Assembly (NCBI GenBank): GCA_029239235.1
Contig: JAQZBD010000016.1
Location: 1 to 33,005, forward strand
Direction: 5' to 3'
From: Herbinix sp.
GTDB lineage: Bacteria; Bacillota; Clostridia; Lachnospirales; Lachnospiraceae
DNA: 33,005 bases
A program made the translations under genes and the position numbers. The notes under the pieces were generated by a model that saw only the letters and a program-made list of their open reading frames with translations, was not told where the DNA came from and did no database searches. Shown in pieces: positions 8,213 to 20,964 of this stretch. Numbering within the stretch: the first letter of the stretch is position 1; each line of letters begins with the position of its first letter.

Positions 8213-9493
8213 TTACTCTGTTGCAGTTGATCCTTCCGTAGTTGATGCCTCGGCAGTTGAACCATAGATAAAGTCATGCAGCTCCTGTCTGGTTACACTC
8301 CAGTCCTTAGGCACTAGTACTTCAACATTATATTTTCCCATAGGAACACGTTCATTGTCATAGCTTCCATCAGTAGGGATTCGGAAGGTTTTAAGAGCCT
8401 GAACCTTAAGCTTGGAGGCTTCGTTCAGGTATAAATTAAACTCCTTCTGTGTAATATCTGTTTGAATCTCAACATCCTTTAGAATGTTATTCATTAGCAT
8501 AGCTAATTGCAGTACATTTTTGGATTTCACCTCATCAAAAATAGCATCCAAAACCACACGTTGTCTCTGGGTTCTACCAAAGTCATTGTTCTCAGTTCCG
8601 GTAGAAACCTTACGGACTCGGCAATAGCCTAAGGCTTGATTACCATTCATATGATTCACGCCGGCAACTACAGTTCGGTTGGATTTTTTGGAGATATAAT
8701 TTGTAGTTCTCAGATATTCGGCTTCTTCCTCAGTTAGTGTAATATCCACACCGCCAACCATATCTACAATAGTCTCAAAAGCTTCAAAATCTACCATGCA
8801 GTAGCCATCCAGATCTACTTCAAAATTATTCTCAATGGTCTCATACAGCAAATCAATACCGCCCTTACCGAAGGCTGAATTAAGCTTACTCTTGTCGTGG
8901 CCGGGAATGTCAACATATAAGTCACGCATGATGGAGGTAAGCTTTAAGGAATGATCATCCTTATTCAAGGTGGCAATCATCATAGAATCCGTATTCTTAG
9001 CACCGCCGATTTGTTCCTCACCAATCAGTAAAATATTGACTACCGATTTATCCAGCGTCAGATCCGTAATTGCCTCATCTGAATCAGCGTCATCGGAAGA
9101 TGCATAGGATAAGTTACCATAAATGTAATTACCAACCGTATTAATTAATAGCTTCCTACCGGAATCCGTAAACAAGAGCAGGCTGGCAACGGCTATGAAA
9201 AGTAAGAGGATGGAGGCAGTTACCTTTAAAAACTTCGCAAATCCCCCTTTTTTCTTACGTGGACGCTTCTTGTTATTGCTGCCGCTACCGGAGGATTTTT
9301 TTGGTTCCTGAGAATCAGTTCTAACTTGTTTTGCCAGAGAGGAATTTACTTCCTTAATAAATGCATCACTGTCATAATCCTCTTCATAGCTAAAATGTAT
9401 GTTGGTGGACTTTTGTCCTCTTATATCACGGTTATTCATAAAGCTTGGGATATCTATTGGATTATTTGATATACTATCATTTCTGTTATTCAT
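8213..9493 (-). CDS. LytR-CpsA-Psr (LCP) family cell-wall polymer transferase
   Basis: A 426-residue membrane-anchored protein. The first ~85 residues are a polar, lysine-rich cytoplasmic tail ending in NNKKRPRKKKGG. Residues ~88-108 are one transmembrane helix, and the rest lies outside the cell. The LCP domain (~150-345) shows NILLIGEEQ, NTDSMMIATL, SIMRDLYVDIPG and a YCRVRK segment with arginines that bind pyrophosphate in the family. LCP enzymes move polyprenyl-linked glycopolymers such as teichoic acids onto peptidoglycan. The C-terminus ends in a short Ser/Thr-rich tail (AEASTTEGSTATE). The first motif is less canonical than GxDxR because GEEQIGGAK replaces the usual arginine-rich loop. 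GGGAG stands 6 nt upstream of the ATG. It is a single gene followed by its own terminator. Confidence 0.93.
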   Translation of the reverse strand: MNNRNDSISNNPIDIPSFMNNRDIRGQKSTNIHFSYEEDYDSDAFIKEVNSSLAKQVRTDSQEPKKSSGSGSNNKKRPRKKKGGFAKFLKVTASILLLFIAVASLLLFTDSGRKLLINTVGNYIYGNLSYASSDDADSDEAITDLTLDKSVVNILLIGEEQIGGAKNTDSMMIATLNKDDHSLKLTSIMRDLYVDIPGHDKSKLNSAFGKGGIDLLYETIENNFEVDLDGYCMVDFEAFETIVDMVGGVDITLTEEEAEYLRTTNYISKKSNRTVVAGVNHMNGNQALGYCRVRKVSTGTENNDFGRTQRQRVVLDAIFDEVKSKNVLQLAMLMNNILKDVEIQTDITQKEFNLYLNEASKLKVQALKTFRIPTDGSYDNERVPMGKYNVEVLVPKDWSVTRQELHDFIYGSTAEASTTEGSTATE

Positions 9494-10933: not shown

Positions 10934-12019
10934 TTAATGTAATCGGACTGTGGTTCCGTTAACCATAATTGATTTTACTGTACTCCAATCCATTTCTTTA
11001 GAAAAGCTAAATATGGAAATTACTTTACCGGAGTTGATAGAATTGCTTCCTCCCGAGAACCATTCTGTATCAAAGTCAATGATAGTATCTTCATCTGACG
11101 GTGCAGTATCATTTTTGACGCTTCTTTCCGAACGGCCTATTGAAGCCTGAGTTTTTGCGACAGAGATGCGATTATCAGACTTCACTTGTTCAAGAGCTCT
11201 ATAGTAATGATAGAACTTACTAATACTTCCATCCATGAATTCAATTGTGATTAGGCAATTTTCGCTATTAACGTCCTCATTTTCTAATGAACCTAAAAGT
11301 GTGAAGCCAAGATCAGAATAGTATAGCTTTTGGTATGACATGGGATAGCCTTCTGATGCTGGAATATCTATATCCAATTCAGTTAATTCTACTGTCTGGG
11401 TAATTGGTATAGTTATTTTCTTAGAAATACCCTCCATAGAAAAGGTTAGACCTTCCTCCGGATATAGATTAAGCTCCTTACTGACCTTAAAGGAAAAAGA
11501 AAAATATCTACGATATTCATCCGGGGCTTCTTCACGGAGACCATAGCCGACAGGGGATATCCGTAGCTTATGGACAATGTTATCCTTAAAAAATGTCTCC
11601 TGCGCTTTTGGACTTAAGGCTTCTACAGAGATAGTTGCAATACCGGTGTAGGAATCGCAGGCAAGCTCGAGAACAGTAAGTTTATAATCCTTATTTTTTA
11701 TGCTTTCCCCTACCTTCAGTATCTTTTCTTGTGATATACCAAGTAAGCTGCTGATCGTCTCGCGTACTCCCTCGTTTGCTGCGGCAAAAACGGTTGCACC
11801 ACCGATACAAAGTACTGCACATGCTACAAGGGCTACTTTACATAACTGTCTTTTGAAAGAAAATGACATTTCTTTTCTATCTTTTCGTACTTTGTCTAAG
11901 GTTAACTTACGTATTCGTTCTATATTAGCTTGGCCATACAGGGTAGAATTGTCTTCTACTTGAATATCTTCGAGATTTAGCTTTTCAAATAATGAATGCA
12001 TATGAATGCTATGCTTCAT
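10934..12019 (-). CDS. DUF4179-like membrane anti-sigma factor
   Basis: A 361-residue bitopic membrane protein. Residues 1-58 form a basic cytoplasmic segment, residues ~60-80 a transmembrane helix (VALVACAVLCIGGATVF), and the remainder is external and beta-rich. The segment after the helix (NEGVRETISSLLGISQEKI) is typical of the DUF4179 family, which pairs with ECF-like sigma factors in Firmicutes. The cytoplasmic part would hold the sigma factor until an envelope signal releases it; that is inferred from gene order. I start at ATG 12019 because AAGGAGG lies 8 nt upstream; an earlier in-frame ATG at 12040 lies inside the sigma gene without one. It overlaps the sigma gene end by 11 bp. No protease or lipobox motif is seen. 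Confidence 0.8.
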   Translation of the reverse strand: MKHSIHMHSLFEKLNLEDIQVEDNSTLYGQANIERIRKLTLDKVRKDRKEMSFSFKRQLCKVALVACAVLCIGGATVFAAANEGVRETISSLLGISQEKILKVGESIKNKDYKLTVLELACDSYTGIATISVEALSPKAQETFFKDNIVHKLRISPVGYGLREEAPDEYRRYFSFSFKVSKELNLYPEEGLTFSMEGISKKITIPITQTVELTELDIDIPASEGYPMSYQKLYYSDLGFTLLGSLENEDVNSENCLITIEFMDGSISKFYHYYRALEQVKSDNRISVAKTQASIGRSERSVKNDTAPSDEDTIIDFDTEWFSGGSNSINSGKVISIFSFSKEMDWSTVKSIMVNGTTVRLH

Positions 12020-12560
12020 AATAATAACCTCCTTCTTCAAATCTTTTTACAAGTTCGCTGCGGCCGCGATATAGTTTTGATTTAATAGTGGAAAGCGGCA
12101 AATCAAATCGCTCTGCAATTTCTGTTAATTTATAATTCCAAAAATAATAAGAAAGTAGAATATCCTTATCAGGATAGTTTAAGAGAGATATGGTGTCGCG
12201 AAGAAATTGCAGCTGTTCCTTATGAATAATGAGTTCATCTACTCCCTCAGAAGAAAAGACCAGCATATCCTCATCCAAGGGTTCTTCCTCTCTTTTATGA
12301 CACAGTCGTGTCTTTGTCATATTCCTTGCAATCTGTGCAATATATGGCTTTAAACTGCCTGTTTCGATTAGATTTCCTCGATTCTTCCATATGGCGTAAA
12401 ATACATCTGAAGCAATTTCCTCCACATCTTGGATGGACAGTAGGCGTCCGCCGATTCTTGCAGCGATAGAAACGACATAGGAAGAGTAGCGCTCTATCAG
12501 ATACTCCAGTGCCTTTTCCTTATTCTGTTTCAGTCTTTTTATGATGATATAATCCTCCAT
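12009..12560 (-). CDS. ECF-type RNA polymerase sigma factor
   Basis: A 183-residue sigma-70 family protein with only regions 2 and 4. Region 2 covers ALEYLIERYSSYVVSIAARI and DVEEIASDVFYAIWKNR, where the -10 contact helix lies. After a short acidic linker (REEEPLDEDMLVF), region 4 contains LTEIAERFDLPLSTIKSKLYRGR, a helix-turn-helix that would read the -35. It is followed by, and overlaps, a membrane anti-sigma gene, the usual arrangement for an envelope-stress pair. A GGGGG ribosome site precedes the ATG. A TGAAAC at 12610-12605 (complement) resembles an ECF -35, but no matching -10 is clear, so autoregulation remains a guess. Confidence 0.92.
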   Translation of the reverse strand: MEDYIIIKRLKQNKEKALEYLIERYSSYVVSIAARIGGRLLSIQDVEEIASDVFYAIWKNRGNLIETGSLKPYIAQIARNMTKTRLCHKREEEPLDEDMLVFSSEGVDELIIHKEQLQFLRDTISLLNYPDKDILLSYYFWNYKLTEIAERFDLPLSTIKSKLYRGRSELVKRFEEGGYYYEA

Positions 12561-12694: not shown

Positions 12695-12743
12695 TTGACA
12701 GTCATTATAGACAAATGTATACTATGAATCATAGACAAATGTA
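12695..12743 (+). promoter_or_regulatory. blaI promoter with two BlaI/MecI-like operators
   Basis: TTGACA (12695-12700), a 17-bp spacer and TATACT (12718-12723) form a consensus promoter. ATAGACAAATGTA occurs twice as an exact direct repeat, at 12707-12719 and 12731-12743, starts 24 bp apart. Each contains the ACA/TGT dyad typical of BlaI/MecI operators. The first overlaps the -10; the second covers the start point. This fits autorepression by the adjacent BlaI-type protein. Confidence 0.8.
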
Positions 12744-12766
12744 GATAATTGATGGGAGATCGGAAT

Positions 12767-13228
12767 ATGAAAAATGGAAAACTTATAAAACAAGGCAGTG
12801 TTGCAAGTAATAGAGATCAACCACCGGTAAGTAATAACGAGAAATCAATTGATAACATAACTAGGTTACCGGAGACTGAATTTGAAGTTATGTCAGTCGT
12901 ATGGAAAAATAATCCGCCAGTAACAACGACAACACTTATGAATCAACTTGGCAATAAAAAAGGATGGAAGCTGCAGACGCTAGTTACGTTATTAAATCGA
13001 TTAACAGAACGAGGCTTTTTACGTAGTGAAAAGTTAGGAAAGGAACGTACCTATTACCCTAGTGTAAGACAAGAAGACTACATCCAATTTGAAACTACAC
13101 TTTTTGTAGAGCGATATCACGATAACTCCTTATTACAACTGGTGAATGCATTCTCAGGAAATAACAGACTTAGTGAGGAAGAAATAAACGAGCTTAGTTC
13201 CTGGTTAAAAAAGCAAGAGGAAAAATAA
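12767..13228 (+). CDS. BlaI/MecI-family transcriptional repressor
   Basis: A 153-residue winged-helix repressor. After a ~35-residue polar N-terminal extension, RLPETEFEVMSVVW opens the BlaI domain, followed by TTTTLMNQLGNKKGWKLQTLVTLLNRLTERGFL (the recognition helix and wing) and KERTYYPSVRQEDY. The C-terminal helices form the dimer part. In the family, a membrane M56 protease senses cell-wall attack and causes cleavage of the repressor. The partner protease begins 1 bp after this stop. I prefer the ATG at 12767 (GGGAG ~8 nt upstream) to the ATG at 12752, which lacks a ribosome site. Two matching operators lie in its promoter, so it probably controls itself and the sensor. Confidence 0.9.
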   Translation: MKNGKLIKQGSVASNRDQPPVSNNEKSIDNITRLPETEFEVMSVVWKNNPPVTTTTLMNQLGNKKGWKLQTLVTLLNRLTERGFLRSEKLGKERTYYPSVRQEDYIQFETTLFVERYHDNSLLQLVNAFSGNNRLSEEEINELSSWLKKQEEK

Positions 13229-13229
13229 T

Positions 13230-14891
13230 ATGGATAATATAGTAGCTATATTCTTTTTATGTTTTACAAATTCTCTCAACATTACATTCCTTATTTTATT
13301 AATGGTTCTTCTGGAGCCATTCTTAAAAAAATATTTTTCTGCCGTTTGTCTGTACCGTCTCTGGGTGGTACTGCTAATTGGATTATTGATACCAATGCGT
13401 TTTGACACCTCGAAAGCCTTATTTTATATAAGTTCGCCGCGAATATCTGTTGAAAATAATGCTTTTAATGTCCCTGGTATGCAAGATAGTAATGAAAGTT
13501 ACAATCTGAAATCAAAAGATACACTATCGCAAAAACAGTTACCTCTAGACACGAGGAATGCAGATAAGACTTCAAAAGAAAGCTGGACTCATTTTTTTAA
13601 GTATATAACGGCATATATTACCTATATCGTTCAAAACAGATACGTATTATTGTCTCAACTTTGGTTACTAGGTGCAAGCTTACTGTTAGCAGTAAAAGGT
13701 ATTCAATATTGTAATTACCGGAAGCGACTAAAAAGGTTTATGAATCCTATTAATCAGGAGGACTTAAAAGAGGAGTACAATTTGTGTATTCAAGAATTAC
13801 ATTTTAGTGACAGAAAAAGGCGACCACAAAATAGTAAAATTATTATTAATAAATGTTCTATCATTACAAGTCCTATGACCGTTGGTGTTTTTAAACCTAC
13901 AATTTTATTCCCAGAGGAATCGTGCTCAAATAAGGATTTTTATTTTATTTTGAAGCATGAGCTGATCCATATTCGAAGGCGAGATTCACTGATGAAATTA
14001 GTACGACTGATAGTTTTGGCTTTTAACTGGTATAATCCATTTTGCTATGTATTATCAAGACGTTTGGATCAATGGTGTGAAACTTCCTGTGATGAACTTG
14101 TTATTTATAATGCGACTAGGGCAGACTGCATAAATTATAGTAAACTTTTATTAAAGTATACGGCTGTTAAAAGAATTGTAACAGATACAATTAATATGAT
14201 TGGAGGAAAGGATAATATGAAAGATAGACTGCATTCGATAATGAATCCTGGAAAAAAACATTCTGGCAAGGTGCTTATTGTACTGTTGCTGTGTCTTGTA
14301 TTTACGACTGTAATTGTGTCGTCAATTACTCATACGGACGTGTTGGCGTCTAGTGAAAACGCTACAACGGAAGAGCCGTTAGTGAACGCAGAAGAAATGG
14401 GTGATATAACAGATAATGTAATGGCTTCTCCAATTAATGATAGTGATTCGACTGACAATGGAGCCATAGATAAAGATGTGAATGTGATTAATTCAAATTC
14501 AGAAGCTGCTCCAACTGCAGCCTCACTTCGTGAAACAGTAGTTGAATATGCAATACAAGCAGAGGGAACTCCATATTTATGGGGAGGCAATGATCTGAGT
14601 ATTGGTGTTGACTCGAGCGGATTTACTCAGCGGATTTATAAAAAAGTGGGTTACGACCTTCCTAGGACGTCAATGGAACAGGCTGATATGTGTGAGGAGG
14701 TTCCTATGGAAAGTTTGCAGGAGGGTGATTTAATATTTTATGCAAGTTCAGGCGATAATGAGGTAAATCACGTCGGAATATATATTGGAGAGGATAAGAT
14801 TATCCATGCAAAAAATGCACGTGAAGGGGTTGTAATTCAAGAAATTAATTATCGTAAGCCATTAAGGGCAGGTAGAATTATCGCAGATTAG
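13230..14891 (+). CDS. BlaR1-like M56 membrane protease fused to an NlpC/P60 domain lacking its cysteine
   Basis: A 553-residue sensor-protease. N-terminal helices lie at ~8-28 and ~40-56, with more at ~125-155. The M56 zinc protease domain faces the cytosol, with H243-E-L-I-H247 and a third ligand region ETSCDE at 284-289. A last helix at ~347-366 leads outside to an acidic Ser/Asp/Asn linker (370-430), then an NlpC/P60 domain (~432-553). That domain has AIQAEGTPYLWGG, LPRTSMEQ, EGDLIFY, NHVGIYIG (H514) and IIHAKN, all typical. The catalytic DCSGF is DSSGF, with serine (codon TCG) at 462. Canonical BlaR1 carries a penicillin-binding domain here. It probably senses peptidoglycan fragments without cutting them (inference). 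The gene starts 1 bp after blaI, with GAGGAAAA as ribosome site. Confidence 0.88.
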   Translation: MDNIVAIFFLCFTNSLNITFLILLMVLLEPFLKKYFSAVCLYRLWVVLLIGLLIPMRFDTSKALFYISSPRISVENNAFNVPGMQDSNESYNLKSKDTLSQKQLPLDTRNADKTSKESWTHFFKYITAYITYIVQNRYVLLSQLWLLGASLLLAVKGIQYCNYRKRLKRFMNPINQEDLKEEYNLCIQELHFSDRKRRPQNSKIIINKCSIITSPMTVGVFKPTILFPEESCSNKDFYFILKHELIHIRRRDSLMKLVRLIVLAFNWYNPFCYVLSRRLDQWCETSCDELVIYNATRADCINYSKLLLKYTAVKRIVTDTINMIGGKDNMKDRLHSIMNPGKKHSGKVLIVLLLCLVFTTVIVSSITHTDVLASSENATTEEPLVNAEEMGDITDNVMASPINDSDSTDNGAIDKDVNVINSNSEAAPTAASLRETVVEYAIQAEGTPYLWGGNDLSIGVDSSGFTQRIYKKVGYDLPRTSMEQADMCEEVPMESLQEGDLIFYASSGDNEVNHVGIYIGEDKIIHAKNAREGVVIQEINYRKPLRAGRIIAD

Positions 14892-15153: not shown

Positions 15154-15963
15154 ATGGAAATATCGAATATAATTTTTGCATTTTCGCTGACACTATTTGC
15201 AGGCTTATCCACAGGTATCGGCAGCGGACTAGCACTGCTCACTAAAAAAACCAGTACTAAGTTTCTTTCCGTTTCCTTGGGATTTTCAGCTGGGGTCATG
15301 CTTTATGTTTCCTTTGCAGAGATAATGGTGAAAGCAAATGATGCTTTAAAGTCTGCCCTTGGAGATAAACTGGGAGCCTGGGCTGCGGTAGGAGGATTCT
15401 TCTTTGGTATTTTATTTATAGCCGTTATTGATAAATTAATACCTTCAACAGAAAATCCCCACGAAGTACATACAGTAGAAGAGATGGACGGAACAAGTGA
15501 GGAGCACAAATCAAAATTAATGCGTATGGGTTTATTCACTGCCTTGGCCAAAGCAATACATAATTTTCCGGAAGGATTGGCTACCTTTACAGCTGCATTA
15601 AGTGATCCTAAGCTGGGTATCCCCATTGCCGTAGCGATTGCAATTCATAATATACCAGAGGGCATCGCAGTTGCAGTGCCGGTGTTCTATGCAACAGGGA
15701 GCAGGAAAAAAGCATTTAAACTATCATTTTTATCCGGGCTTTCAGAACCGGTTGGGGCAATCATAGGTTATTTAATTCTATTTAGTTTTTTCAATGATGC
15801 AATGTTTGGTTTTATTTTCGCTTCTGTCGCGGGTATTATGGTTTATATCAGCCTTGATGAGTTGCTGCCTTCAGCTAGAGAGTATGGAGAACATCATCTT
15901 TCCATTTATGGATTAATTGCCGGAATGGCACTTATGGCTGTGAGCCTTTTGTTATTTATATAA
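15154..15963 (+). CDS. zupT: ZIP-family divalent metal transporter (ZupT-like)
   Basis: A 269-residue membrane protein with about eight helices, of the ZIP family, importing zinc and possibly iron or manganese. The metal-binding helices IV and V show the paired motifs [10 protein letters not shown] and [13 protein letters not shown], the signature of Zup[14 protein letters not shown] and [13 protein letters not shown] follow as in family members. A short cytoplasmic loop rich in Glu/His ([14 protein letters not shown]) sits between helices III and IV. AAGGAGG stands just before the ATG at 15154. It seems to be a single gene. No Fur/Zur-type palindrome was evident upstream. Confidence 0.93.
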
Positions 15964-16279: not shown

Positions 16280-17572
16280 ATGAGAATTCATACGGTTCAA
16301 CCCGACGAAACGATATATACCATTGCTGAAGATTATCAGATTCCGGTAGAGCGGCTGCTTAAAGATAATAATCTGCCGCCAAATTATAGGTTGAATGATG
16401 GGCAGAGCCTTATCATCACCTATCCTGAAAAGACTTATCTAGTGCAAGATGGAGATACACTACAAAGCATCGCGGATGCCAATGAGATTTCAGTAAAACA
16501 GTTGCTGCGTAATAACCCCCACTTATCTGATCGGGATTATCTGTATATTGGAGAGGAGATTGTACTCAGCTATCCTCAGCAACAAGACATCAAAGTGATT
16601 GGCTATGCCTTTTCCTATATTCATAAAAATATATTGATTAAGTCATTACCTTTTCTGACCTATCTAACGATTATTAATTACAGGGTTCTAGCGGATGGAT
16701 CTATCCTTAGTGTAAATGATACTGAGGTATTAGAATTGGCGAAAGAATACGGTGTGGCTCCAATTATGATGCTTTCATCAATTGATGAGCAGGGGAGAAG
16801 CAGTTATGGTGTAAATCATACCCTATTAAATAATTATGAGGCGAGATCCCTTTTAATCGGTAATGTGCTTAATATATTAAATGAAAAAGGTTTTATTGGA
16901 ATTGATATAGGATTTCAAGCGATACTACCGGAAGATATACCTGTATATATAGAGTTTATTAGAATAATGACATATAGCCTCAATCAAGAAGGCTATGAAG
17001 TGTTCGTAACCCTAGTCCCTTCAACCTTTGGCTACATCTCAGGAATACAAAATGATATTCCATATTTCTCTCAGATCGGTGAGATAGCTAACCATGTTAT
17101 TCTTATATCATATCAATGGGCTACTGCTTTTATACCAACGGTTGCGCAAACCACGGTAAATTTCTTGAGGGATTATTTGAATTATGTATTAACCCAGATT
17201 CCTCCGGAAAAAATATTCATCGGATTGACGAGACTGGCCTACGACTGGGAGCTTCCATACATTGAGGGAGAAACAACAGGCAGGGGGAATGTGCTTACGA
17301 ATGCAGATGCATTAACCTTGGCTAATCAGACGAATGCAGAGATTAACTATGATGATAAGACTCAGACACCCTATTTCCATTATAATATAACAGGAGTTGA
17401 TCATTTTGTGTGGTTTAAGGATGCCAGATCAGTGAATGCAATTATATCCTTAGTGAATGAATATAATCTTGAGGGCATAGCCATCTGGAATATTATGTAC
17501 TATGCACCGCAGACTTGGCTGGTGCTAAATAGTCAATATAATATTATTTCTGAGAATAATGAAGCTATATAA
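16280..17572 (+). CDS. LysM-LysM-GH18 spore-type protein with degenerate active site (copy 1)
   Basis: A 430-residue protein. Residues 1-48 and 52-97 are LysM repeats that bind peptidoglycan or chitin-like glycans, and ~103-425 is a GH18 barrel like the SleL/YaaH cortex hydrolases of spores. It has no signal peptide, as is usual for spore-coat LysM enzymes. The GH18 catalytic motif DxxDxDxE should fall at 206-213, but the sequence is GFIGIDIGFQ: the acid/base glutamate is Q213, D211 is glycine and the first aspartate is isoleucine. Hydrolysis by the normal substrate-assisted mechanism should be lost. Later barrel segments (IFIGLTRLAYDWELPY, HFVWFKDARS, GIAIWNIMYYAP) are well kept, so the fold is intact. 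It is probably a spore-wall binding protein. A second gene of the same length and defect lies at 19315-20607. Confidence 0.88.
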   Translation: MRIHTVQPDETIYTIAEDYQIPVERLLKDNNLPPNYRLNDGQSLIITYPEKTYLVQDGDTLQSIADANEISVKQLLRNNPHLSDRDYLYIGEEIVLSYPQQQDIKVIGYAFSYIHKNILIKSLPFLTYLTIINYRVLADGSILSVNDTEVLELAKEYGVAPIMMLSSIDEQGRSSYGVNHTLLNNYEARSLLIGNVLNILNEKGFIGIDIGFQAILPEDIPVYIEFIRIMTYSLNQEGYEVFVTLVPSTFGYISGIQNDIPYFSQIGEIANHVILISYQWATAFIPTVAQTTVNFLRDYLNYVLTQIPPEKIFIGLTRLAYDWELPYIEGETTGRGNVLTNADALTLANQTNAEINYDDKTQTPYFHYNITGVDHFVWFKDARSVNAIISLVNEYNLEGIAIWNIMYYAPQTWLVLNSQYNIISENNEAI

Positions 17573-18547: not shown

Positions 18548-18919
18548 ATGTTTACAGAAAAATTTCTTGAAGTGGTAAACCATGAAGGTGTTGTATCAAT
18601 AGTAACCTGTTCTAATAACGAGGCTCATGCAGCGAATACCTGGAACAGCTATTTAGTAATTACGGAGGATAATAAAATATTAATTCCGGCAGCTGCAATG
18701 ATCAAGACAGAAGAAAATGTTAAGGCTAATCCTAAAGTGAAGCTGACTCTTGGCAGCAAAGAAGTAATGGGACATATGTATATGGGAACAGGATTTTTAT
18801 TGGAAGGAACAGCAAAATTCTTAACAGAGGGCGACAGCTTTAAGATGATGTTTGAAAAATATCCATTTCTTACAAGAGTTGTAGAGGTTACGGTAACTTC
18901 CTGCAAGCAGACATTATAA
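18548..18919 (+). CDS. Pyridoxamine 5'-phosphate oxidase-like FMN-binding split-barrel protein
   Basis: A 123-residue protein of the FMN-binding split-barrel superfamily. It starts MFTEKFLEVVNHEGVVSIVT and has the pattern TWNSYLVITEDNKILIPAAAMIKTEENVKANPKVKLTLGS, in which small one-domain flavoproteins contact FMN phosphate. The end, FLTRVVEVTVTSCKQTL, forms the last strands. It probably binds FMN (or heme/F420 in distant kin) and handles electron transfer or detoxification; the substrate is unknown. An AGGAGG site precedes the ATG. A ferredoxin gene follows after 15 bp, which makes a redox partner likely. The divergent Rrf2 regulator is the natural candidate controller. Confidence 0.82.
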   Translation: MFTEKFLEVVNHEGVVSIVTCSNNEAHAANTWNSYLVITEDNKILIPAAAMIKTEENVKANPKVKLTLGSKEVMGHMYMGTGFLLEGTAKFLTEGDSFKMMFEKYPFLTRVVEVTVTSCKQTL

Positions 18920-19314: not shown

Positions 19315-20607
19315 CTATAGTTTGAGATCTATTCCCTTTTCAATCTCATATTGGGTATTAATCACCAACCAAAGCTGATGGAAATAATACATGATATTCC
19401 AGATTCCAATACCACTGATGCCATAGCTTTTTAAGATTTGTATGGAAGAATCTATGCTCCTTGCATCCTTGAACCATACGATATGCTTAAGGTTATCCTC
19501 ATCCGTATATTCAAAATATGCGGAAAGTATGGATTCATCGTAGTTAATAACAGCATTCATTTCTTTGGCTAATCTTATTACGGACTCATAATTAAGTGCA
19601 TTGGCTTTTGATACACCGGGGACATAGGGTAATCTCCAGTCATATCCAAAGGTGGGCAGACCAATTCGTATCTTTTCGAGAGGAACCTGATCTATGATAT
19701 AATCTAGTAATTGTGGTGTTGTGATGATAGAGAATTGAGTAGGAGGCCTTTGGATGGAGCCCCAATCATAGGATAAAAAAAGTATGCCGTCTGATAATCT
19801 GCTAAATTCAGTATAGTTTAACTTCTGGAAGGTTAACTCGTCTTTATCATAGTAAAGCCCAGGATTTAGAGTTAAGAAGACAGGATAACCCTCAGCATGC
19901 AAACGAATATAAATGCGTTCCAAAAAATCTAAATAGTATTTCTGATTTTCCACGCTAATGAGCTGAAATGCAAGACTAACGGAATGATAGCCCTTTGTTC
20001 TTAGGATTTGAAGAATATTTTCGATTGCCAGTTCCTGTATTTTGGGGTTTAATAGTATATCCTGTATCACTGAAGTATCAATGGCTCCGGTATCTGAATA
20101 AGCAGTTATGACAAAGCTGGAGGCTGTTTCATATAATAGAGCAGTCTGAATAACAGATACGTCCTTATCACTGCCGATGAAACCGCCATTATTCGTGGTA
20201 CGGTAATTCAGAATCAACAGGTTGGACAGATAGGGCAAGGTCATTCTTAGGACTTGGTCATTGATAAAGGAATAGGTATAACCATCTATTAATAATCTTC
20301 CATTTTTATTATTAAAGCTAATCACTAAAGTTTCTCCAATATAAAGATATTCCCTGGCAGCGAGGTGAGGGTTATTTCTAAGCAGCTGCAATATAGTTAC
20401 CTGAAAAACTTCTGCGATACCCTCCAAGGTATCGCCTTCCTTAACGTTATATGTCTGATTAGGATATGTAATAACCAAGGTTTGGCCAACTACAAGGTCA
20501 TCATATGCTTGCATACCATTATCTACAATTAATTTCTCAGCAGTAATATCGAATTTAGAGGCTACTGAATCTATGGTATCTCCTTGCTGAACCACATATA
20601 TTTCCAT
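19315..20607 (-). CDS. LysM-LysM-GH18 spore-type protein with degenerate active site (copy 2)
   Basis: A 430-residue paralogue of the protein at 16280: two LysM repeats (~1-48 and 52-97, MEIYVVQQGDTID and YNVKEGDTLEGIA) and a GH18 barrel. At the catalytic motif it reads KGYHSVSLAFQ, so all three aspartates (positions 208, 211 and 213) and the catalytic glutamate (Q215) are lost. Other barrel landmarks (IRIGLPTFGYDWRLPY, HIVWFKDARSID, GIGIWNIMYY) are intact. It should bind rather than cut glycans. I start at the first LysM codon (20607), as is usual for this family; the frame reaches back to 20643. The ribosome site here is weak, while a strong AAAGGAGG at ~20666-20673 serves an ATG at 20656 in another frame. 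A 9-bp repeat GCCCATGCC/GGCATGGGC encloses this start region. Confidence 0.85.
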   Translation of the reverse strand: MEIYVVQQGDTIDSVASKFDITAEKLIVDNGMQAYDDLVVGQTLVITYPNQTYNVKEGDTLEGIAEVFQVTILQLLRNNPHLAAREYLYIGETLVISFNNKNGRLLIDGYTYSFINDQVLRMTLPYLSNLLILNYRTTNNGGFIGSDKDVSVIQTALLYETASSFVITAYSDTGAIDTSVIQDILLNPKIQELAIENILQILRTKGYHSVSLAFQLISVENQKYYLDFLERIYIRLHAEGYPVFLTLNPGLYYDKDELTFQKLNYTEFSRLSDGILFLSYDWGSIQRPPTQFSIITTPQLLDYIIDQVPLEKIRIGLPTFGYDWRLPYVPGVSKANALNYESVIRLAKEMNAVINYDESILSAYFEYTDEDNLKHIVWFKDARSIDSSIQILKSYGISGIGIWNIMYYFHQLWLVINTQYEIEKGIDLKL

Positions 20608-20964
20608 AATTATGCCCATGCCCATTACCGTACAAAATGCCATGAAAGTGTGGCATGGGCTCGGTTCCTCCTTTACTCCGTATTTTTACTTCGTTCAACC
20701 TTAACCTCAGTTTATATATTTATATTAATATATGTTTAGAACTGATTTATTTTTCATATTATTTTAAATCAAGTCCGATGAAAAATAATACCCATATCAT
20801 AAATATCAATACTAAAAGGTATCGGGGAACCATTCTCCTAAGTTACTCTTTTGTTTTAATGTTCTATAAAATAAATATTAATTTTGTGGAAGGTGGTCAT
20901 ATTTACAAGTAAATAAAAATATATGGTTAATAAGGCATCAGGACATAGAAGCAGCGAGGAGCAT
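20608..20964. other. Divergent intergenic region before the peptide ABC operon
   Basis: A+T-rich DNA between the leftward LysM gene and the rightward ABC operon. It contains the GCCCATGCC/GGCATGGGC inverted repeat (20614-20622 and 20652-20660) and an orphan AAAGGAGG on the complement strand. An 85-codon open frame over 20655-20912 looks spurious: low-complexity Ile/Tyr/Asn, no ribosome site. I see no clear promoter or terminator. Confidence 0.4.

Follow-up and report, generated by a model that had tools for sequence, protein, structure and literature searches.

A BlaR1-like M56 protease of Herbinix with a serine-substituted NlpC/P60 domain, probably a sensor of cell-wall fragments

Introduction

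What might a receptor protease of the BlaR1 type be sensing when the domain that follows its protease is an NlpC/P60 domain in which the catalytic cysteine has been replaced by serine? The question is raised by a gene in a window of Herbinix sp. DNA, by which we mean the whole stretch analysed (33,005 nucleotides, contig JAQZBD010000016.1); coordinates are those of this window, and features lie on its + strand except where marked otherwise. In BlaR1/MecR1-BlaI/MecI systems, paired operators are found at the promoter. The original prediction for this locus, made from the DNA sequence alone, was of a BlaR1-like M56 protease keeping its HELIH motif, with an NlpC/P60 domain in place of the penicillin-binding sensor, a Cys-to-Ser change beside retained histidines, and signalling through a BlaI-type partner.

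The analysis bears this out in part. At all orthologous loci found, the repressor gene is paired with that of the M56-NlpC receptor, and the two share a single promoter that holds two copies of a predicted operator. Our best reading, to which we give a probability of roughly 0.6, is of a BlaI/BlaR1-type switch that regulates itself and senses through an NlpC/P60 domain, disabled as an enzyme, that would bind peptidoglycan stem peptides without cutting them; the binding, the cleavage of BlaI and the output are the parts of that switch that we infer. The receptor's role, in other words, is probably to sense fragments of the cell wall and not to cut them.

Results

Receptor architecture

The receptor is encoded by a 553-residue open reading frame (13230..14891) in which an M56 protease is fused to a C-terminal NlpC/P60 domain. 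Pfam at E <= 0.001 finds Peptidase_M56 (residues 14-336, 13269..14237, E 2e-37) and NLPC_P60 (residues 446-540, 14565..14849, E 8.3e-24) and no other family, so that NLPC_P60 alone follows the protease and no transpeptidase-type or penicillin-binding sensor domain is found at this threshold. The NCBIfam model blaR1_generic has a cut-off of 400 bits, which the protein, at 96, misses by a wide margin. The only solved structures matching the M56 part at E <= 0.001 are those of S. aureus-type BlaR1 (8exp, 8exs), of which 8exp aligns to residues 151-364. In this alignment the HELIH motif (residues 243-247, 13956..13970), the third zinc ligand E284 (14079-14081) and D288 (14091-14093) fall into register, with H243, E244, H247, E284 and D288 opposite BlaR1 H201, E202, H205, E242 and D246; all five are invariant across the three orthologues described below. 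The zinc ligands of BlaR1 are given as H201, H205 and E242 in the available part of the source (PMC9834060), and the HExxH...E site of the BlaR1/MecR1 receptors is thus present here.

A Kyte-Doolittle script places hydrophobic segments at residues 10-36, 36-54, 140-158 and 348-366, the last of them (14271..14327) preceding the part presumed to lie outside, and a BlaR1-like topology with the C-terminal domain outside the membrane would match this layout, which is drawn from hydropathy only. Between the last segment and the NlpC/P60 domain runs an acidic linker (residues 367-430, 14328..14519; 14 acidic residues and 1 basic) that is poorly conserved. A full-length fold predicted from two sequences was discarded for its pLDDT of 30.6.

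Serine 462 and the NlpC/P60 active site

The NlpC/P60 domain modelled on its own (residues 425-553) reaches a pLDDT of 95.2, with 6b8c, 7cfl and 3h41 among its best five Foldseek rows. It reads GVDSSGF instead of DCSGF: aligned to YkfC (3h41), Ser462 (codon TCG, 14613-14615), within DSSGF at residues 461-465 (14610..14624), takes the place of the catalytic Cys238, while His514 (14769..14771) sits at the catalytic His291 and His526 (14805..14807) at the third triad position, His303. The roles of these YkfC residues, and of those lining the pocket, are described in the accessible portion of the structural report (PMC2954226). As regards the features of a C40 peptidase, then, the NlpC/P60 fold is there by prediction and the catalytic cysteine is missing, being serine in three of three orthologues. 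Both histidines are kept in the same three, His526 being a position that is His in only 3/8 standalone genus domains and in 21/34 viral rows of the control alignments described below. A serine at the nucleophile position is also aligned in PDB chain 7v6s of MepS, which we take to be an engineered inactive form.

At the level of the protein, the original prediction thus stands on the HELIH-bearing BlaR1-like protease, the NlpC/P60 domain in place of a penicillin-binding one, the substitution at the YkfC Cys238 position and the retained histidines. It had also named, beforehand, a preponderance of cysteine among homologues of the same architecture as the outcome that would speak against it; when these were examined, every one of the three carried serine.

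Orthologues and constraint

Full-length orthologues occur in 3/34 genomes of the genus, namely the window's own (G000), G002 and G006. Receptor identity to the window protein is 76% (G002) and 47% (G006), and identity over the NlpC domain alone, at 84% and 57%, exceeds both of these values. All three read DSSGF, with the serine encoded by TCG, TCT and AGT; since TCN and AGY codons are at least two steps apart, the serine has either been held through such a change or been reached twice. Cysteine, by comparison, is found in 27/27 standalone NlpC/P60 domains gathered by a motif script over the collected loci, which returned 32 rows (3 fused with Ser, the 27 standalone, and 2 spurious matches to Ser-rich linkers that were dropped) and is not exhaustive in that it requires a motif of the HVxxYxG type. 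The NlpC domains of viral contigs have cysteine in 80/80 (the best 80 of 95 relatives), a set for which one of the two finding DNA patterns admits only Cys or Ser at the nucleophile and the other does not cover the position. The control rows of two alignments add 8/8 and 34/34 with Cys, the 34 being part of the viral 80 and most of the 8 lying within the standalone 27. A tree of 46 rows, 4 of them fused domains with 3 distinct sequences, groups these domains together (support 98/83), which is consistent with one fusion.

Rates of substitution (NG86) between the window and G002 copies give dN/dS of 0.15 (0.098/0.650) for the NlpC domain, 0.19 for the M56 core and 0.26 for the first 57 residues, with the loop 58-138 (0.62) and the linker (0.75) as the least constrained parts. 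The window-G006 comparison gives 0.22 for NlpC and 0.23 for the M56 core, and between G002 and G006 the NlpC value (0.28) is above that of the core (0.22), dS in these distant pairs being above 1.3 or not computable. Taken together, the values suggest constraint on the NlpC domain similar to that on the protease core and much stronger than on the loop and linker, as judged from only three orthologues, two of them close.

No full-length M56-NlpC protein was found outside the genus among the genome samples of relatives (61), order (392), class (391), family (397) and phylum (299), which overlap with one another and with the genus sample (34) and all include G000. In the order, class, family and phylum samples scoring was limited to 3-4 candidates per genome at most (E <= 1e-30 to 1e-44), and a distant independent fusion elsewhere could be missed. 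An exact short-peptide scan of genome contigs returned only the Herbinix copy (JAQZBN010000004.1) and two partial M56 matches. A first-pass viral scan gave 75 stretches with no relative, a plasmid search 865 records with partial matches and 0 covering 80% of the query, and a search of the literature, of incomplete coverage, no paper joining M56, NlpC and BlaI.

The gamma-D-Glu pocket

Alignment to YkfC also locates a substrate pocket, with Y449, W451, D461, S463, R479 and S481 at the positions of Tyr226, Trp228, Asp237, Ser239, Arg255 and Ser257. All but the first are kept in 3/3 orthologues. Scored over five residues (Tyr226, Trp228, Asp237, Ser239, Ser257), the pocket is complete in the window protein and G002 (5/5) and has 4/5 in G006, where the Tyr226 position is Phe; it is Tyr in the window protein, in G002 and in 42/42 standalone rows. 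In the available part of the YkfC report, Tyr226 is tied to transition-state stabilisation and, in a docked model, to the gamma-D-Glu carboxyl (PMC2954226), so that the Phe of G006 argues against catalysis yet is not neutral for binding. The same portion of the report has Asp256 serving the free L-Ala amine; in the window protein this position is T480, and a free N-terminal L-Ala is therefore probably not required. It further describes oxidised, inactive YkfC retaining L-Ala-gamma-D-Glu in the crystal, from which it follows that an NlpC pocket with a dead nucleophile can still hold its ligand. As read from these alignments, the pocket supports a gamma-D-Glu stem peptide as the putative class of ligand.

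The operon and its operators

Directly upstream of the receptor lies a BlaI/MecI-type repressor gene (12767..13228) of 153 residues from the ATG at 12767, for which a GGGAG is seen upstream by eye; the family searches were started one codon earlier, at 12764. Its product contains a Penicillinase_R domain (Pfam, E 1.5e-25) and is matched by MecI/BlaI structures. A gene of this type sits in the same place in 3/3 orthologous loci, at 83.7% (G002) and 69.9% (G006) identity to the window repressor. All three repressors share the sequence VNAF, whose Phe aligns with a MecI/BlaI Phe that is given in the available part of the source as the P1' residue of the BlaI cut, with Asn101 as P1 in S. aureus BlaI (PMC9834060); in the window repressor P1 is Ala.

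The operon is preceded by a promoter, TTGACA-N17-TATACT (12695..12723; 11/12 matches), in a layout common to the orthologous loci. The region has 19 promoter-like sites, a number not raised over shuffled sequence (mean 17.9), and among them this one ranks first. ACA-NN-TGT is the core of the BlaI/MecI operator family. Pattern scans predict two such operators here, one TAGACAAATGTA (12708..12719) that lies in the promoter spacer and extends into the -10, and a second TAGACAAATGTA 24 bp downstream, just past the -10 (12732..12743), so that of the BlaI/MecI features both the domain and a predicted operator pair at the gene's own promoter are present. The two TAGACAANTGTA copies at the promoter are spaced by 24, 24 and 23 bp in the three species. 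The strict pair, GACANNTGTAN{8,16}GACANNTGTA, occurs in exactly 3/34 genus genomes, those that carry the receptor, once in each and at this promoter, against 1 match for the reversed-pattern control across all 34.

Single sites are less informative. TAGACAANTGTA has 13 matches in 7 genomes compared to 29 for the reversed control, and in G000 the numbers are 3 and 2, with two of those 3 sites belonging to this operon; the search for a regulon of single sites was given up, its matches not being above control. Within the window GACANATGTA is found 3 times against a shuffled mean of 0.21, the third copy (18771-18780) lying inside an open reading frame (18548-18919), while the looser KACANNTGTM is found 3 times against 1.5, a number reached by 20/100 shuffles. 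A relaxed pair pattern, scanned in 9 genomes, matches only the operon's own promoter in G000 (control 1), and neither it nor the strict pattern finds a second pair in that draft genome. In G006 it matches the own promoter and one site overlapping the end of a small open reading frame (control 2), in G002 it gives 8 matches at 5 places, one of them the own promoter (control 0), and in G004 and G015, which are without the receptor gene, 4 matches each. Three of the four further places in G002 were inspected (the one on contig C108 excepted). They comprise a short tandem repeat, a site shortly after a gene end, and a site on contig C82 that is intergenic and might be a second target. From the strict and relaxed pairs, the operon itself is the only clear target. 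Given the conserved BlaI-type neighbour and the operator pair, the predicted signalling through BlaI is likely, while the triggering of proteolysis by ligand binding is a step that we still infer.

Over 20 kb around the G006 copy the sole similarity to the window, beyond the pair, is a paralogous ABC ATPase, which makes the repressor and receptor genes the unit; the flanks of the G002 copy have several genes in common with the window. An ECF sigma gene and a DUF4179 anti-sigma-like gene (10934-12560, - strand; DUF4179 just under the cut-off) adjoin the operon in divergent orientation. This pair was considered as a member of the unit and rejected, being conserved beside the G002 copy but not found in the 20 kb around that of G006. 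On the other side, 262 bp 3' of the zinc-protease receptor, is a gene for a ZupT-type zinc transporter (15154-15963), and the scan gave no terminator-like site on the + strand between the two. The window also holds two LysM plus GH18 genes (16280-17572, and 19315-20643 on the - strand), of the kind seen in spore-cortex hydrolases. Neither zupT nor the downstream LysM-GH18 gene has a match within 20 kb of either orthologue.

Other M56 ectodomains

A script found 31 M56 open reading frames among the collected loci, the 3 orthologues and 28 others, in a sample that was drawn by similarity to the receptor query and is not a census. Pfam scans of the C-terminal tails of 20 of the 28 gave LytR-CpsA-Psr in 1, DUF4825 in 4, PepSY in 3, YscJ/FliF in 1 and nothing in 11, with neither NlpC nor transpeptidase in any of the 20; the DUF4825 or repeated PepSY ectodomains are those at L046, L048, L055 and L057, and at L052, L059 and L063. 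Two proteins scanned whole (L004, L037) have no ectodomain above the cut-off.

The LytR-CpsA-Psr case belongs to a second blaI-M56 pair in G000 itself (locus L194, contig C300, 2-1687, - strand), whose ectodomain (E 4.9e-29) is cut by the contig end and whose BlaI-like open reading frame (1659-2072, - strand) was identified by eye. Relatives spanning both parts are found in G023 and G006, making 3/34 genomes with G000, and G028 matches the M56 part only; a BlaI-like open reading frame lies just upstream of each of the three LytR-CpsA-Psr-M56 genes, as judged by eye and not by family scan. The window encodes a standalone LytR-CpsA-Psr protein as well (8213-9493, - strand), whose identity to the M56-fused domain is 42% over the part that the two have in common. 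M56 proteins of this genus thus carry wall-enzyme ectodomains of two kinds, NlpC/P60 and LytR-CpsA-Psr, which suggests that receptors of this family are able to recruit various wall enzymes for sensing.

Discussion

The mechanism we propose would run as follows. When there is no signal, a dimer of the BlaI-type repressor would sit on both predicted operators and block the promoter. Outside the membrane, the NlpC/P60 domain would hold a stem peptide of the X-L-Ala-gamma-D-Glu type without cleaving it, binding would be relayed via the transmembrane helices to the M56 site, and the latter would cut the repressor and so derepress the operon. The sensor of BlaR1 is likewise an enzyme-like domain used for binding and not for turnover.

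Compared to the staphylococcal BlaR1/MecR1-BlaI/MecI systems (8exp), the locus shares the HExxH...E site, hydrophobic segments that hydropathy puts at matching positions, the adjacent BlaI-type repressor and the paired operators, here predicted, at the promoter. It differs in its NlpC/P60 sensor with serine, in that the conserved unit is of two genes without a beta-lactamase or PBP gene, and in the Ala at P1 of the repressor, which is Asn in S. aureus BlaI. With the NlpC/P60 gamma-D-Glu-diamino acid peptidases (YkfC 3h41, SagA 6b8c and Acd24020 of C. difficile, 7cfl) it has in common the predicted fold, the pocket residues and both histidines, whereas the nucleophile has gone from Cys to Ser and the domain is fused to a membrane protease. 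Mycobacterial RipD has similarly lost its NlpC/P60 nucleophile, its triad being given as Ala83-Ser132-Glu144 in a source whose available wording is inconsistent as to which residue became Ser (PMC12067865); in RipD, however, the His is lost too, whereas here only the Cys is changed, and that text does not describe RipD as a receptor protease. Closer to the proposed signal, BlaI/MecI are reported to respond to gamma-D-Glu-diamino acid dipeptides, and in Bacillus licheniformis gamma-D-Glu-mA2pm coactivates BlaI by binding it in the cytoplasm, as far as the available part of that paper goes (PMC3305447). There, as in our proposal, BlaI control responds to a stem-peptide fragment with gamma-D-Glu, but the dipeptide binds the cytoplasmic repressor, whereas here the ligand would be read outside by the receptor.

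Because both histidines are kept, the main rival is that Ser462 is itself a nucleophile, and that Ser462-His514-His526 make up a slow hydrolase or a long-lived gamma-D-glutamyl ester trap; in the trap version the receptor would read covalent acylation, much like BlaR1 with penicillin. The retention of His526 in all three orthologues, at a position so often not His in standalone genus domains, and the presence of serine and no other residue across two codon families both favour this, against which a serine is also what the presumably inactive MepS 7v6s carries. We consider either version unlikely, given moreover that G006 is without the equivalent of Tyr226, linked to transition-state stabilisation in the accessible YkfC text (PMC2954226). 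It is improbable, too, that the NlpC domain is a mere wall anchor and that the stimulus, be it membrane stress, a metal or something acting on loop 58-138, is read elsewhere: against G002, constraint is weakest on that loop and on the linker, and the peptide pocket is kept. In favour of an anchor are the M56 proteins whose ectodomain is of another kind or not recognised, and RipD, a non-catalytic NlpC/P60 protein that binds the wall (PMC12067865).

A decaying or misassembled domain would make the serine a sequencing error, or a change without effect in a gene that is being lost. It might be suspected because two of the three genomes are drafts with more than a hundred contigs, but the three assemblies are separate, one of them having a 4.1 Mb contig, and all carry the same serine, there is no internal stop, and the NlpC domain is under purifying selection (0.15 against G002), so that this explanation is largely refuted and we give it very little weight. 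Hardly any weight at all falls to an ordinary beta-lactam sensor, which the BlaR1-type protease and BlaI-type partner might suggest, in view of the missing transpeptidase-type domain and the low blaR1_generic score.

Several observations nevertheless weaken the preferred reading of a sensor that binds stem peptides without cutting them. A pure binding domain would not need the two histidines that are kept, and the Phe of G006 removes a group modelled to hold gamma-D-Glu in YkfC. In the G002-G006 comparison the NlpC domain is less constrained than the M56 core, P1 of the aligned repressor site is Ala and not Asn, and relaxed operator pairs also turn up at four more places in G002 and in genomes that lack the receptor gene.

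More tentatively, and with some doubt on our part, BlaR1-type M56 receptors may be a general class that uses captured, disabled wall enzymes as sensors, among them NlpC/P60 with Ser, LytR-CpsA-Psr and penicillin-binding domains, with the NlpC type reading stem peptides, possibly as a gamma-D-glutamyl-serine ester. If this is true, the NlpC-type switch senses wall turnover directly, and not an antibiotic. The locus offers a putative receptor for peptidoglycan fragments outside the cell in which signalling by direct cleavage of a repressor can be put to the test, and a natural Ser-for-Cys NlpC/P60 domain, kept across species, that is useful for the question of binding versus trapping versus slow cutting. 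It would separate the sensing of wall damage from that of beta-lactams within the BlaR1 family, and hints at the origin of the antibiotic sensors of that family.
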